Below are positions 3,997-32,248 of a DNA stretch of 38,439 bases, piece by piece; the stretch's first letter is position 1, and every line of letters starts with the position of its first letter. A model generated the notes under the pieces. That model was not told the origin of the DNA. It did no database searches and saw nothing but the letters and a program-made list of their open reading frames with translations. The translations under genes and the position numbers were made by a program. The DNA is from Candidatus Methanophagales archaeon. GTDB taxonomy: Archaea > Halobacteriota > Syntropharchaeia > Alkanophagales > Methanospirareceae. The stretch lies in NCBI GenBank assembly GCA_030602585.1, contig JAUVZJ010000017.1, forward strand, positions 1 to 38,439, in the 5' to 3' direction.

Positions 3997-4069
3997 GAAA
4001 CCTTTACCAGAGAAAGAATTTTTCTTTTAGCACAGGTTTTCTTTTTGTAAAAAAGAAAAAAGTGTAGAA
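3997..4069 (+). repeat. Interspersed palindromic element upstream of coaE
   Basis: Two modules. The stretch 3997-4016 matches 17 of 20 bases of the element inside coaE (4396-4415). From 4019 to the ATG the sequence is nearly the same as 18081-18134 before the CDP-alcohol transferase start, with two substitutions and two one-base indels over about 54 nt. The core TTTTCTTTTT GTA AAAAAGAAAA is an inverted repeat able to form a hairpin. The element ends right at the start codon and carries no clear Shine-Dalgarno sequence. Confidence 0.75.
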
Positions 4070-4723
4070 ATGCGAGTAGTGGGCGTAACCGGGGGAATAG
4101 CAAGTGGAAAGAGCCTCGTGTTAAATACATTTATGAAACTCGGCGCTTATGCAATAGATTGTGATGCGCTAAGCAGAGAGGTTGTAATGCCATGTTCGAA
4201 GCCGTGGTGGGAGATAGTGAGTTTCTTTGGTAAAGATATATTGAAGAAGGATTTGGAGCTAGACAGGAAGAAGCTGCGGGGGATAGTGTTCGGCGATTCG
4301 GAGAAACTCGATATTTTAGAGAAGATAATACACCCGGAAGTAAGAAGGAAGTGCATGGAGAGAGTCGAGGCGATAAAAAACCTTTCTTTAAAAAAGAAAG
4401 CTTTACCAAAGAAAAATTATACTTCATACACTATGGAATTAGAGCCAGATACGCTCGTTGTTATTGATGTCCCGCTATTAATAGAGCTGGGGATTCAAAA
4501 AGAATTCGATAAAGTAATTGTTGTTTATGTCAGCGAGGAGGTGCAGATAAGAAGGGTGATGGAACGAGATGGAGTAACGAAGGAAGCGGCAAAAAAAATG
4601 ATTGGAATGCAAATGCCGCTGAAGGAGAAGCTGAAATTCGCTGATAATGTTATAAATAACGAAGGCACGCTCGAAGAAACCGAGAAGCAGGTTAGAAATG
4701 TGTTTGAGGCACTTTCTTCTTGA
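4070..4723 (+). CDS. coaE: Dephospho-CoA kinase
   Basis: A 217-aa P-loop kinase for the last step of coenzyme A synthesis: ATP-dependent phosphorylation of the 3'-hydroxyl of dephospho-CoA. GVTGGIASGKS (Walker A) is at residues 5-15. CDALSREV, the HPEVR segment, the VVIDVPLLIELG lid-proximal motif and the VMERDGVTKEAA region all match CoaE. The family is usually about 190-200 aa. The excess falls between VEAIK and DTLVVIDVPLL, where residues 104-115 (NLSLKKKALPKK) are encoded by a 36-nt interspersed repeat in frame. The gene stands alone between two minus-strand blocks. Confidence 0.9.
   Translation: MRVVGVTGGIASGKSLVLNTFMKLGAYAIDCDALSREVVMPCSKPWWEIVSFFGKDILKKDLELDRKKLRGIVFGDSEKLDILEKIIHPEVRRKCMERVEAIKNLSLKKKALPKKNYTSYTMELEPDTLVVIDVPLLIELGIQKEFDKVIVVYVSEEVQIRRVMERDGVTKEAAKKMIGMQMPLKEKLKFADNVINNEGTLEETEKQVRNVFEALSS
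4379..4414 (+). repeat. Interspersed repeat inserted in frame within coaE
   Basis: This 36-nt block matches the reverse complement of 31022-31057 at 35 of 36 positions. It contains the perfect palindrome CTTTCTTT AAA AAAGAAAG (4382-4400). It starts exactly on a codon boundary and equals 12 codons (residues 104-115), so it adds residues without shifting the frame. Confidence 0.85.
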
Positions 4724-17480: not shown

Positions 17481-18130
17481 TAATCGGCATCACAGGAACT
17501 CCGGGCACTGGAAAGACGAGCGTGTGCAAAGCACTTGGACTCGAATTTATGGATTTGAATAAAGTAGTAGAGGAGAAGGGCTTCTATACGGGTGTAGATA
17601 ATGAAAGAGGATGTCTTATCGCAAACCTGGATAAAATAGAAGAATACGTGAGGTATGAAGAAAAAAGGATGATGGTAGTCGAGAGCCACTTAGCTCATTT
17701 CCTGAAGCCTGATGTAGCGGTCGTGTTGCGAGCAAATCCTTTCTTACTTGCCGATAGGCTAAAGCAAAAGGGCTTTTCTGCGCAAAAAATAAAGGAGAAC
17801 GTGGAAGCGGAAACGCTGGATGTTATATTAGCGGAGGCGGTAGAGATATGCGAAATTGTATATGAAGTGGATACAAGTGGAAAGAGCATAGAAGAAGTGG
17901 CTTCTACAGTGCGAGAGATTATAGACGTAGAGATAGTAGGTGAAAAAGGGGGTAAGAAGGTAGAAGAGACAAGGGATAAGTATAAGCCGGGGACAGCGGA
18001 CTGGACTTGCTTCGTAGAGAAAGTTTGCCTTACGGCAACAATGAAAAATGAAAAACGAAAAATGCAAAAGAAACTATTGTTTTTTCTTTTAGCACAGGTT
18101 TTCTTTTTTGTAAAAAAGAAAAAGTGTTAA
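17477..18130 (+). CDS. AK6/Fap7-type adenylate kinase with repeat-derived C-terminal tail
   Basis: A 217-aa P-loop kinase. GITGTPGTGKTSV is the Walker A of the AK6/Fap7 group, followed by ELVEEKGFYTG-like (KVVEEKGFYTG), VESHLAHF and the LRANPFLLADRLKQKGF lid. Archaeal and eukaryotic members bind Rps14/uS11 and act in small-subunit maturation, with adenylate kinase activity. The normal end is near KYKPGTADWTCF (about 176). Residues 189-217 are encoded by two interspersed repeats, giving a hydrophobic then lysine-rich tail (LLFFLLAQVFFFVKKKKC). The family is usually about 180 aa. The stop lies 1 nt before the next start. Confidence 0.88.
   Translation: MIIGITGTPGTGKTSVCKALGLEFMDLNKVVEEKGFYTGVDNERGCLIANLDKIEEYVRYEEKRMMVVESHLAHFLKPDVAVVLRANPFLLADRLKQKGFSAQKIKENVEAETLDVILAEAVEICEIVYEVDTSGKSIEEVASTVREIIDVEIVGEKGGKKVEETRDKYKPGTADWTCFVEKVCLTATMKNEKRKMQKKLLFFLLAQVFFFVKKKKC
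18041..18070 (+). repeat. (ATGCAAA)n-type junction repeat, copy a
   Basis: A-rich tract of ATGAAAAATG/AAAAACG/AAAAATGCAAA form within the 3' end of the AK6-type kinase gene. Same family as 18769-18810, 19211-19240, 20241-20266 and 24201-24236. Confidence 0.6.
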
Positions 18131-18131
18131 A
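18081..18131 (+). repeat. Interspersed palindromic element ending at the CDP-alcohol transferase start
   Basis: Near-identical to 4019-4069 before coaE. It contains the inverted repeat TTTTCTTTTTT GTA AAAAAGAAAA. Here it codes for the last residues of the AK6-type kinase and ends at the ATG of the next gene. Confidence 0.8.
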
Positions 18132-28575: not shown

Positions 28576-29661
28576 ATGAAGAGAATCGAGTTTCATAACA
28601 GAGAAGAAGAGATAAAAGAGATACAGGACATATTGAGCGTGGAGCCCATATTGATTACTTTTGTTTACGGTCCTATAAACAGCGGGAAAACAGAACTGAT
28701 TGACCATCTTGCGAAACAATTGCCGAAAGATTATGTCGTTTTTTATATCAATTTCCGAGGAAAGTACATCTCCGATTACAGCGACTTCATCAGGGTTCTG
28801 TTCAAGGTGGAGCGAGAGAAGGATTACAAGGAAATTTTAAAAACTATTTCGGAACCACCAGAGGAAGCACTGAGGTTTAAAGGCATTCCCGTCACTAAAA
28901 GTATGATAGATGCGGTATTCAAAAAATCTTACGAGGATGTATTTGAATTTCTCGAGGGCTACTTTACAAAACTATCAGAAAGCAGGATACCAGTGCTTAT
29001 TGTTGACGAGCTGCAGGTGATTAAGGACATAAAGATAGATGAGTTGTGGATATATAAACTCTTCAACTTCTTCGTAAGGCTGACAAAAGAATTGCGTATT
29101 TGTCATGTCTTCGCAATCACTTCCGATTTCCTTTTCATGGAAAAAGTTCACAGTGATGCGATGCTTCACGGAAGATGCAGATACTTGCTCGTTAATGACT
29201 TCAGTCAGGAAGTAACCATGAATTTTCTGGAAAAGCACGGCTTTAATAAGGAGGAGAAGGAGATTGCGTGGCACTACTGTGGCGGTAAGCCCCTATGCCT
29301 GGTCGAACTTGTAAATAGTGAAAGCAGGGAAGGAAAAGCTGAAGAGATGTTCAAGATAAGAAAGGGACAAATAGAAGAGATAGTGTATTCGTTGAAAGAT
29401 AAAAACAAAAAAATGTTTGCCGCAGTTTTGGGTGTCCTATCAGAATTTGAAGACAAGGATAAAACCGGATATAAATATTTAAGGGAAGAAACCAGGCTTC
29501 TGGTGGAAAAAAATATCCTTTTCGCAGACCCCGTGAATAAGGAGTTGAGAGCACAGTCAATGCTGGATTTGCTTGCTATAAGGGATGCGATTTCCAAACA
29601 GAAGAGTCGCTTATTCCTTTTGAGAATAAGGAGACGAATTCGCAGTGGACATGTTCTGTGA
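28576..29661 (+). CDS. Archaeal ATPase (AAA-type, DExx)
   Basis: 361 aa. REEEIKEIQDIL leads into Walker A VYGPINSGKTELIDHL (residues about 30-45). Walker B is PVLIVDELQVI (about 137-147). FAITSDFLFMEK acts as sensor 1, and a lid region has WHYCGGKPLCLVELV, all typical of the Pfam archaeal ATPase family. The Ser in GKTE-type NSGKT is normal. A basic C-terminus (LRIRRRIRSGHVL) ends the protein. These STAND-like ATPases occur in many copies in archaea, with largely unknown roles. Its stop overlaps the GTG start of truD by 4 nt. Confidence 0.82.
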   Translation: MKRIEFHNREEEIKEIQDILSVEPILITFVYGPINSGKTELIDHLAKQLPKDYVVFYINFRGKYISDYSDFIRVLFKVEREKDYKEILKTISEPPEEALRFKGIPVTKSMIDAVFKKSYEDVFEFLEGYFTKLSESRIPVLIVDELQVIKDIKIDELWIYKLFNFFVRLTKELRICHVFAITSDFLFMEKVHSDAMLHGRCRYLLVNDFSQEVTMNFLEKHGFNKEEKEIAWHYCGGKPLCLVELVNSESREGKAEEMFKIRKGQIEEIVYSLKDKNKKMFAAVLGVLSEFEDKDKTGYKYLREETRLLVEKNILFADPVNKELRAQSMLDLLAIRDAISKQKSRLFLLRIRRRIRSGHVL

Positions 29662-31013
29662 GAGAATTACGAGAAGATGAAGTAATATCTTTTGGGTCAA
29701 AGGGAATGGAGTTAAAAGAAAGCCCGGAATTTGAAAAACGAATAGGTATATGGTTTTACTTTACGAGAACAGAAGGAATAGGTGGAGTTATAAAAACAAT
29801 ACCCGCTGACTTCTTTGTTCGTGAAATTACGAATAGAAAGGAAAGCGAAGAAGGAAAATACCTGATTGCCGAATTGAAGAAGGAAAACTGGGACACACAC
29901 GGCGTGATAAGAGAGATTTCTCGTAGGCTGCGAGTTAGCAGGAATAGGATTGGGTTCGCAGGCACGAAAGACAAATCCGCCGTGACAACGCAGAAGATAA
30001 GTATATGGGATACCGATGAAAAAGAGCTGGAACGAGTAAAAATCGCTGATGTCTCGTTAAAAATAATCGGGAGGTCGAATAAAGCCGTTTCCTTAGGCGA
30101 CCTTTATGGAAACGAGTTTGAGATTGTTATTCGTGGTATAGAAGGTGGAAAAGAAGCGATAAAAGATAAAATCGATGCGATAACAACCGAAATAGAAAAT
30201 GCCGGCGGGATACCTAATTTCTTCGGTAGTCAGCGTTTTGGCATTAGCCGTCCGATAACGCACGTAGTAGGAAAACACCTGATACAGGGTGAACTAAGAG
30301 AAGCGGTTATGTCTTACATATCCGATATTTTCCCGGGGGAAAGCGAAGAGGCGAAACAAGCGAGGATGTTATGCAAGGCGGGTGAACTGAAAGAAAGCTT
30401 GAAAATAATGCCTTTGCGATACGAAAGAGCAATGTTGAATGAGCTTGTAAAAAGTGATAATGAAGCAAATTTCCTTTCTGCTTTTTCCGTCCTTCCAAAG
30501 AACTTACAAAAACTTTTCGTTCATGCGTATCAAGCTTATCTCTTCAATCTCGTCTTAAGCCATCGTATGAAACGAAACTTGCCTTTTAATGAAGCGTTGG
30601 CAGGCGATGTGGTCTGTTTTCACAATGAATTTGGATTCGCAGACGCTGACAAGGTGGAGAGAGTCACAGAAGATAAAATGGCGGGGATGAACAGGTTAAT
30701 AAAGAGGGGCAGGGCTTTTGTCACCGCTTCTATCTCTGGATATGAAACTGAATTTGCAGATGGTGTGGAAGGGGAGATAGAGCGGAAGGTTCTGGAAGAA
30801 GAAGCCATCGAATTAACCGATTTTCATATCGAAAAGATTCCGGAAATAAGCTCTAAAGGGATAAGAAGACCGGTGTTGGTGCCGGTGAAGTTAAGTAAAG
30901 AAGAAATCAGCGATGATGAGCTTAATCCCGGACTATTCAAAGTAACGTTACATTTCTTCCTGCCAAAAGGCTCTTATGCTACTGTTCTGTTAAGAGAATA
31001 TATGAAAAAATAA
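29658..31013 (+). CDS. truD: tRNA pseudouridine synthase TruD
   Basis: 451 aa if GTG 29658 is used (GTGA overlap with the upstream stop), or 435 aa from ATG 29706 (MELKESPEFEKRIGI), which fits the usual archaeal N-terminus better. Catalytic FAGTKDKSAVTTQ, the GNEFEIVIRGI strand, NFFGSQRFGISRPITH and the TRUD insertion domain are intact. It makes pseudouridine 13 in tRNA (and U35 of tRNA-Tyr in some archaea). The end is PKGSYATVLLREYMK, as in the family. Confidence 0.93.
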   Translation: MRELREDEVISFGSKGMELKESPEFEKRIGIWFYFTRTEGIGGVIKTIPADFFVREITNRKESEEGKYLIAELKKENWDTHGVIREISRRLRVSRNRIGFAGTKDKSAVTTQKISIWDTDEKELERVKIADVSLKIIGRSNKAVSLGDLYGNEFEIVIRGIEGGKEAIKDKIDAITTEIENAGGIPNFFGSQRFGISRPITHVVGKHLIQGELREAVMSYISDIFPGESEEAKQARMLCKAGELKESLKIMPLRYERAMLNELVKSDNEANFLSAFSVLPKNLQKLFVHAYQAYLFNLVLSHRMKRNLPFNEALAGDVVCFHNEFGFADADKVERVTEDKMAGMNRLIKRGRAFVTASISGYETEFADGVEGEIERKVLEEEAIELTDFHIEKIPEISSKGIRRPVLVPVKLSKEEISDDELNPGLFKVTLHFFLPKGSYATVLLREYMKK

Positions 31014-31021
31014 AATAGTTG

Positions 31022-31057
31022 TTTCTTTGGTAAAGCTTTCTTTTTTAAGGAAAGGTT
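31022..31057 (-). repeat. Interspersed palindromic element after truD
   Basis: On the minus strand this block equals the 36-nt in-frame insert of coaE at 4379-4414 except for one base. It begins 8 nt after the truD stop. Confidence 0.85.
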
Positions 31058-31163: not shown

Positions 31164-32048
31164 TCAAGAAACCTTCTTCGCCCCCTTCAATTCTTTCTTA
31201 CTCAAGAACATGTTCTCGCCAGTGTTTATATCCCTGCCTTCTATTCCTTTTCCTTCTATCACGTGCTCCACGGAAATCACTTTATCATCTACTTCCACGA
31301 TGTCACCTTCCTTAAATCCCGGAAGTCTAACCGAAAACGACACCCTGTATATATTCCTGCCGTCTTTACGTCCATACAATTTCTGACTTTCCGAAAACGC
31401 CCCACCTAATTTCTTCACTATCGCTCTCGAAATCCTCCGTCCACATTCCATGCTGCTGACATAAATGTCCAGCCCCTCCTTCAACATCATCTCTTTAGAT
31501 ACGAAATCCGATTCTCCTAAGGACGAATACGCAATTTTTTCCGCCATAACAAGTTCGTCATCCGTTGGAATTCTACCCTCTGCCCTTATTTGCACTATAC
31601 CCGCGTAATATCCACCCGCTATCCTGCTGCACCGTTCACACATCTCTCGTTTCAGAATAACCGCTATCTCGCCTCTTTCTGCTATCTCCACCCCCTTTAC
31701 TTCTGCTTTTGCAACCAGAAACACGCTTGCTCTGCGCTCACCTTCTTTCCTTAAACCCTTTATCTCGACTTCACAGCCGTATCCATACTTCTTTCTTATT
31801 TCTCTCTTCACGGAATCCTCAACCACTTCTTCTATGCTCGTTCTCTCATTACCCTTAAAATAGCCTCCGCAATTCTTGCATACACTCAGACTTAGCTCTA
31901 ATTTATCCGCTTCGATTAACAATATTCCTTGCTTGAAACAGTCCTTACATAAAGAATCGAAAAGTTCATCTGTTTTTTTACCACATCGCGGGCAGAATTT
32001 AGCCCATTTCTCTCTCCCTTTTCTTTCCTCTTTCATTGTTACTGCCAT
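31164..32048 (-). CDS. NMD3-family protein
   Basis: 294 aa from ATG 32048 (MAVTMKEERKG); a TTG ten codons upstream is less likely. Two zinc-ribbon pairs, FCPRCGKKTDE...LCKDC and SVCKNCGGYF, open the protein. A third, MCERCSRIAGGYY, follows. The C-terminus has the OB-like RLPGFKEGDIVEVDDKVISV. The eukaryotic homologue is the 60S export adaptor; archaeal members are thought to act in large-subunit biogenesis. Monocistronic, convergent with truD. Confidence 0.85.
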   Translation of the reverse strand: MAVTMKEERKGREKWAKFCPRCGKKTDELFDSLCKDCFKQGILLIEADKLELSLSVCKNCGGYFKGNERTSIEEVVEDSVKREIRKKYGYGCEVEIKGLRKEGERRASVFLVAKAEVKGVEIAERGEIAVILKREMCERCSRIAGGYYAGIVQIRAEGRIPTDDELVMAEKIAYSSLGESDFVSKEMMLKEGLDIYVSSMECGRRISRAIVKKLGGAFSESQKLYGRKDGRNIYRVSFSVRLPGFKEGDIVEVDDKVISVEHVIEGKGIEGRDINTGENMFLSKKELKGAKKVS

Positions 32049-32248
32049 GAAAAATATGTTTAATATGATATTACCCAATTAAGTGTAATGTCCATTAATT
32101 AATAGTCCACGGTTAATTATGTTATCAAACATATCGAAAACAAACGTTACCCTTTACAAAAGAACCTTTCTCCTTCCTTCTTTATACCTTCAAAAAGGTA
32201 GTCTTTTTAGCATGGTGTTTTCGCACCCCTTCCTTCGTATAATCCTTA

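Follow-up and report, generated by a model that had tools for sequence, protein, structure and literature searches.

A palindromic element inserted in frame within the dephospho-CoA kinase gene of a Methanophagales archaeon and dispersed through its family

From comparison of the sequences of many genomes, it was concluded with a probability of roughly 0.86 that a repeat block lying within the dephospho-CoA kinase gene coaE was a copy of a palindromic element, non-autonomous and dispersed in one Methanophagales (ANME-1) family, present in coaE as a recent insertion of about 60 nt that was tolerated in frame. The basis shown by this comparison consisted of dispersed copies, a site left empty in the nearest relative, frame-kept insertions in many unrelated enzymes, and one site filled in several lineages. 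That selfish palindromes invade essential enzymes in frame was already known from Rickettsia and from the intragenic REPs of some other bacteria; here a different 60-nt element is spread in this way through a family of methane-oxidising archaea that are uncultured and of global importance. Filled and empty sites of the same gene make the contribution of such elements to protein sequence directly testable on pairs of enzymes that differ in the insert, and the copies form a natural record of insertion-tolerant loops in CoaE, DapF, MetRS, LeuRS, PurL and others.

The window, i.e. the whole stretch of 38,439 nt that was analysed, carried coaE at 4070..4723 of the + strand. The encoded dephospho-CoA kinase of 217 aa contained the insert at residues 104-121 and had its closest named relatives in Methanophagales (ANME-1) MAGs. 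It matched PF01121 at 1.1e-51 in two stretches, the first of which stopped at residue 104, and the alignment with the PDB homologue 2if2 (the Aquifex CoaE structure) consisted of blocks 1-104 and 117-216, the insert being skipped. The first-pass annotation had placed within coaE, at 4379..4414 (+), a 36-nt block of exactly 12 codons, and both position and frame were borne out. This conserved core of the element (AACCTTTCTTTAAAAAAGAAAGCTTTACCAAAGAAA) encoded N-L-S-L-K-K-K-A-L-P-K-K as residues 104-115 in frame with coaE. It comprised the hairpin CTTTCTTT-AAA-AAAGAAAG (4382..4400, +) and a third arm, AAAGAAA (4408..4414, +), which mirrored the hairpin's purine arm and was a candidate triplex arm. 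The 36-mer was real, but the insert proved to be longer. The full 60-nt unit (4379..4438, +) was made up of the core and a 24-nt A/T-rich tail (AATTATACTTCATACACTATGGAA) and matched the copy in dapF at 92% over 60 nt.

The annotation would have been refuted if the coaE orthologues had encoded the same residues from unrelated DNA. That refutation failed, as the extra residues occurred in only one of about 37 aligned orthologues of the family, namely in the genome of the window (G000). The coaE gene of G001, a genome of the same genus, was an empty site and read GCGATAAAGAAG-ATGGAATTAGAG, against GCGATAAA-AAACCTTT...CACT-ATGGAATTAGAG in G000. The net gain of G000 was 51 nt or 17 residues (residues 105-121, about 4382..4432, +), and by this comparison the coaE insert is a recent insertion. 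Two other orthologues, L058 (G045) and G050:C141, contained one in-frame TAG each, which would indicate either a decayed gene or TAG read-through, e.g. as pyrrolysine.

The place of the inserted residues on the CoaE structure, also raised in the annotation, could be predicted. In the AlphaFold model (pLDDT 86) the CoaE fold was kept (2f6r, TM 0.85), and the top PDB matches were dephospho-CoA kinases. In this model the insert prolonged a long helix as far as residue 111 and continued as a loop, with pLDDT below 50 at 117-124, that preceded the strand 129-133.

Further, other copies were sought in the window and beyond. With up to 3 mismatches, CTTTCTTTAAAAAAGAAAG gave 4 matches in the window, when 0.13 were expected in shuffles. 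An intergenic copy was located at 31022..31057 (-), between truD (29658-31013, +; identified by PF01142) and an NMD3-family gene (31164-32078, -). As had been claimed, the 36-mer of coaE matched this reverse-strand copy after truD at 35 of 36 bases (97%); the ungapped pair extended to 40 nt at 95%. An absence of other genomic copies, which would likewise have refuted the annotation, was ruled out by the census of G000 (2.05 Mb, 92.7% complete), which combined pattern matches with retrieved stretches. A 68-nt query returned at least 47 matches in this genome. The 16-mer AGCTTTACCAAAGAAA, with up to 2 mismatches, was found at 74 places vs 7 for the reversed control. The 73 distinct copies that were oriented and read fell into 21 of class A (AAACCTTTTCTTAGAAAGAAAAGCTTTACCAAAAGAA) and 52 that were of class B (AAACCTTTCTTTnnAAAAGAAAGCTTTACCAAAGAAA) or, in a few cases, degenerate, so that about 70 copies of two related classes were present. 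The core started with AAACC and ended with CCAAAGAAA. The spread into ORFs that had been suggested was real as regards the in-frame copies, but these were a minority: about 93% of the copies in G000 were intergenic and about 7% intragenic.

Across the phylum, an exact 21-mer was recorded in 30 of the 38 genomes that share the family and, among 209 genomes from elsewhere in the phylum, in 1; the control was never matched, and the 21-mer was not found in the IMG/VR viral contigs. Genomes without the element included G010, G012, G017, G023 and G033. Two exact core copies were noticed in G053, which belongs to another family of the same class, possibly through transfer or a binning error. Some class B copies held a further G+C-rich palindromic repeat in the loop, resulting in a 78-nt composite (26 codons). 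Such a composite, with the hairpin arms placed around a G+C-rich double palindrome, was seen in frame in metG of G000 (L030) and in a PfkB-family sugar kinase gene of G004 (L037), which are of different genera.

In-frame copies were detected in at least 15 unrelated enzymes, including coaE, dapF, pssA, metG, leuS, purL, thiD, pheA, galU, recQ and ubiD. Of the three sense frames of the core, two are open (NLSLKKKALPKK and KPFFKKESFTKE) and the third contains TAA; both open frames were used. The family-wide list held 40 sense-strand copies within ORFs, of which 29 used one open frame and the remaining 11 the second. It was obtained by searching the family with peptides in the two open frames and filtering for copies inside longer ORFs. 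Since these peptides were the queries, the list was biased to open, sense and well-conserved copies, and it included some unproven cases or doubtful ones near the N-terminus (L047, L064, L135, L026). Pfam or PDB homology was found on both sides of the insert in CoaE, DapF, MetG, UbiD, PheA, ThiD, GalU, RmlD, PfkB, an FAD oxidase, an epimerase and PurL, hence the insertions were made into folded domains. One locus (L209, G015:C7) consisted of two adjacent copies of an NAD-dependent epimerase gene with the insert in both; the gene had apparently been duplicated once the insert was in place. A class A copy in reverse orientation, lying in frame within a gene for asparagine synthetase (L150, G000:C87), was left out of the count, as its peptide resembled the natural motif there and an empty-site comparison was lacking.

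The dapF genes of G000 and G001 were longer by 60 nt than those of most other genomes, and the added DNA was that of the coaE element in another reading frame (KPFFKKESFTKEKLYFIHNEKG). The full unit of 60 nt, equal to 20 codons, was displayed by dapF and by an NADH-dehydrogenase-like gene. The latter carried 60 additional nt in G018, G013, G035 and G016, always at an identical position; these genomes represent four genera, and the site was empty in congeners of three of these four. It may be argued that the four filled genes descend from one old insertion followed by many precise losses, or were exchanged between genera by homologous recombination, rather than resulting from repeated insertion at a preferred site. 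The four inserts, being 97-100% identical and having the same tail, speak for such an account. However, when the insert was cut out, the gene tree firmly kept G035 within genus g11 and G016 within genus g5, beside empty relatives. The site was therefore either filled more than once or precisely emptied several times, and by our count a single gain would require roughly seven or more precise losses. We consider this account, with either losses or recombination, less likely than repeated insertion, though it has to be kept in mind.

Orthologous in-gene copies from different genera had an identity of 94-100% and agreed in almost every codon, and the host genes shared 58-92% of codons at identical residues. 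This would suggest repeated recent insertions, or DNA that was constrained or homogenised, but the comparison is suggestive only, as decayed copies were not collected.

The same conservation, exceeding that of synonymous sites of the host genes, might also be expected if the element were a functional RNA or DNA signal selected in place, such as a leader or ribosome-binding hairpin, a terminator or an architectural site, with the intragenic copies as accidental by-products of its spread. The omission of decayed copies is an ascertainment problem for this argument too. The in-frame copies were nearly always in the sense orientation. The reverse orientation has open frames as well (FFGKAFFFKERF), but a search for these yielded mostly copies just upstream of start codons. 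Reverse-strand copies in long ORFs were thus rejected as protein inserts; nearly all lay upstream of a likely start codon and were regarded as leaders. When 59 copies from G000 and G001 were gathered by DNA pattern alone, and the bias of the in-ORF list was thereby avoided, an ATG opening an ORF of 75 aa or more was located within 30 nt of the GGTTT end in 20 of them (5 at distance 0), and within that range of the other, sense, end in 1. Reverse copies also stood directly before a tiaS-like gene and acyl-CoA dehydrogenase-like genes. In five genomes of four genera, a reverse element with unlike upstream flanks immediately preceded the ATG of a gene resembling hisH (L199, L318, L320, L321, L335); all three gene names were given from sequence motifs only. 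Moreover, the core hairpin was predicted to fold better than most shuffles (z from -1.5 to -3.2). On the other hand, copies were also 3'-adjacent, convergent or intragenic, most leader positions lack a check of conservation between species, and a search of Rfam families near the element gave no match. A signal selected in place was judged rather unlikely.

It was further considered that the insert might be removed after transcription by splicing, or skipped in translation by ribosomal bypassing, leaving the protein unchanged. Mobile hairpins that are bypassed exist in yeast mitochondria, and hairpin-rich inserts within conserved genes would suit such a process. Yet the clean empty-site lengths of 51, 60 and 60 were divisible by three and the used frame was open, neither of which is needed for removal, and we find this explanation highly improbable. 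That the block is merely an ordinary lineage-specific loop of coaE, its match to non-coding copies being an A/T-rich coincidence, has the support of slight loop-length differences among orthologues at the insert region and of the A/T-rich sequence, but was already refuted by the many dispersed copies that match it at 36/36 or 35/36, the reversed control without exact matches, and the same DNA in another frame in dapF.

The preferred reading, a dispersed element tolerated in frame, may be extended to a putative mechanism. It was inferred that the element is moved in trans by a transposition-like process, with site preference or precise excision, though no transposition has been observed. An enzyme of the HUH/Y1 type acting on the hairpin would be a guess without direct evidence. 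Within genes, the element would survive through the two open sense frames out of three, which yield a peptide (KNLSLKKKALPKK or KPFFKKESFTKE) that is short, soluble and rich in lysine. The protein could take up this peptide by extending a helix or by forming a disordered loop on its surface, and CoaE would thus still be active; the activity is inferred, and translation of the insert is deduced from frame preservation only. Outside genes, the element may persist by doing little harm, or as a leader directly before a start codon in reverse orientation.

A Y1 transposase was rejected as an obvious mobiliser because no clean correlation with the bearers of the element was seen. Y1 genes occurred in many bearers, but several bearers had no Y1 match and G012 had matches without the element, in a comparison limited by incomplete MAGs. 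One Y1 family was itself truncated beside the element. One copy was 135 nt from a Y1 gene, and no pair of elements flanking an intact Y1 gene was seen. Three truncated Y1 genes (two in G002 and one in G024) shared an identical junction with a class B element (L301, L302, L303). It seems that this chimaera was copied; the G002 and G024 cases were rejected as REPtrons, as they look like truncated genes. With regard to target-site duplication, dapF had ATGAAAAA on both sides, when the NADH-dehydrogenase-like sites did not repeat their own target, and the 3' ATGAAA looks element-borne. Contrasts between filled and empty sites in MAGs may include assembly errors, yet the filled sites recurred in independent genomes.

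Nearly half of the Rickettsia palindromic elements (RPEs) lie inside ORFs. These in-frame palindromes occur in many unrelated metabolic genes with a conserved peptide per family (PMC10969869, PMC3733652), measure about 150 bp (PMC10969869) and in R. conorii contain a CGTC tag (PMC3733652). The ANME-1 element was likewise inserted in frame in unrelated protein genes, and the RPE-like spread proposed in the first-pass annotation held across the family. Membership in the Rickettsia family did not, since the sequence differed: the element is archaeal, shorter (60 nt with a 36-nt core), about 7% intragenic and devoid of CGTC at its core ends AAACC and AAAGAAA. It works like an RPE and yet is not one.

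Intragenic REPs, which carry a GTAG or CGTC tag, belong to palindromes of 20-40 bp that are present in tens of copies, mostly intergenic or near gene ends; some lie wholly in ORFs and code for 20-30 aa, and some are N-terminal and probably leaders (PMC3733652). A term search of the text of that paper revealed no archaeal case. The ANME-1 element resembles REPs as a dispersed, mostly intergenic stem-loop of 20-40 bp, but has neither the GTAG nor the CGTC tag, carries an extra mirror-repeat arm and has no demonstrated RAYT pairing. Like MITEs it is short, non-autonomous, dispersed and presumably moved in trans; as a difference from them, terminal inverted repeats attributable to an identified IS were not evident, with Y1 as the only autonomous partner sought, and signs of target-site duplication varied between sites. 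PARCELs, apparently mobile palindromic DNA coding for a protein motif, are arranged in tandem, for the most part in proteins of the membrane or surface, and were not found in archaeal genomes (PMC2996958), whereas the ANME-1 inserts are single and mostly in soluble enzymes. The element is best read as a mobile REP/RPE-like element that is assigned to neither class. No literature on palindromic elements in ANME-1/Methanophagales or other archaea was found, most subscription papers being outside the search.

The window contained a second type of element, the AGCACAGG family, with the layout of classes A and B but a different sequence. The repeat TTTTTCTTTTAGCACAGGTTTTCTTTTTGTAAAAAAGAAAAAGTGT was present at 4019..4066 (+), stopping a few nt short of the start codon of coaE, and at 18081..18131 (+), directly before the ATG (18132) of a CDP-alcohol phosphatidyltransferase gene, with a hairpin and a mirror arm in both copies. 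In classes A and B the third arm followed about 7 nt past the hairpin as the mirror image of the purine arm; class A is asymmetric, whereas class B is symmetric and thus uninformative. We speculate that this pattern reflects an intramolecular triplex rather than alternative Watson−Crick pairing, although few independent sequence types were available. A still wider proposal, that of an archaeal mobile-element superfamily with three-arm triplex geometry, whose orientation sets the role as an in-frame protein linker or a start-codon leader, is probably not correct as it stands and is offered as conjecture. The hairpin and third arm were paired as CTTTTCTT with TTCTTTT in class A and as TTTTCTTTTT with TTTTTCTTTT in the AGCACAGG family. 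In a variant of this family (L276) both had changed together, to TTCTTTCTTT with TTTTCTTTCTT, and the third arm also co-varied in a GGTAAAG variant (L327).
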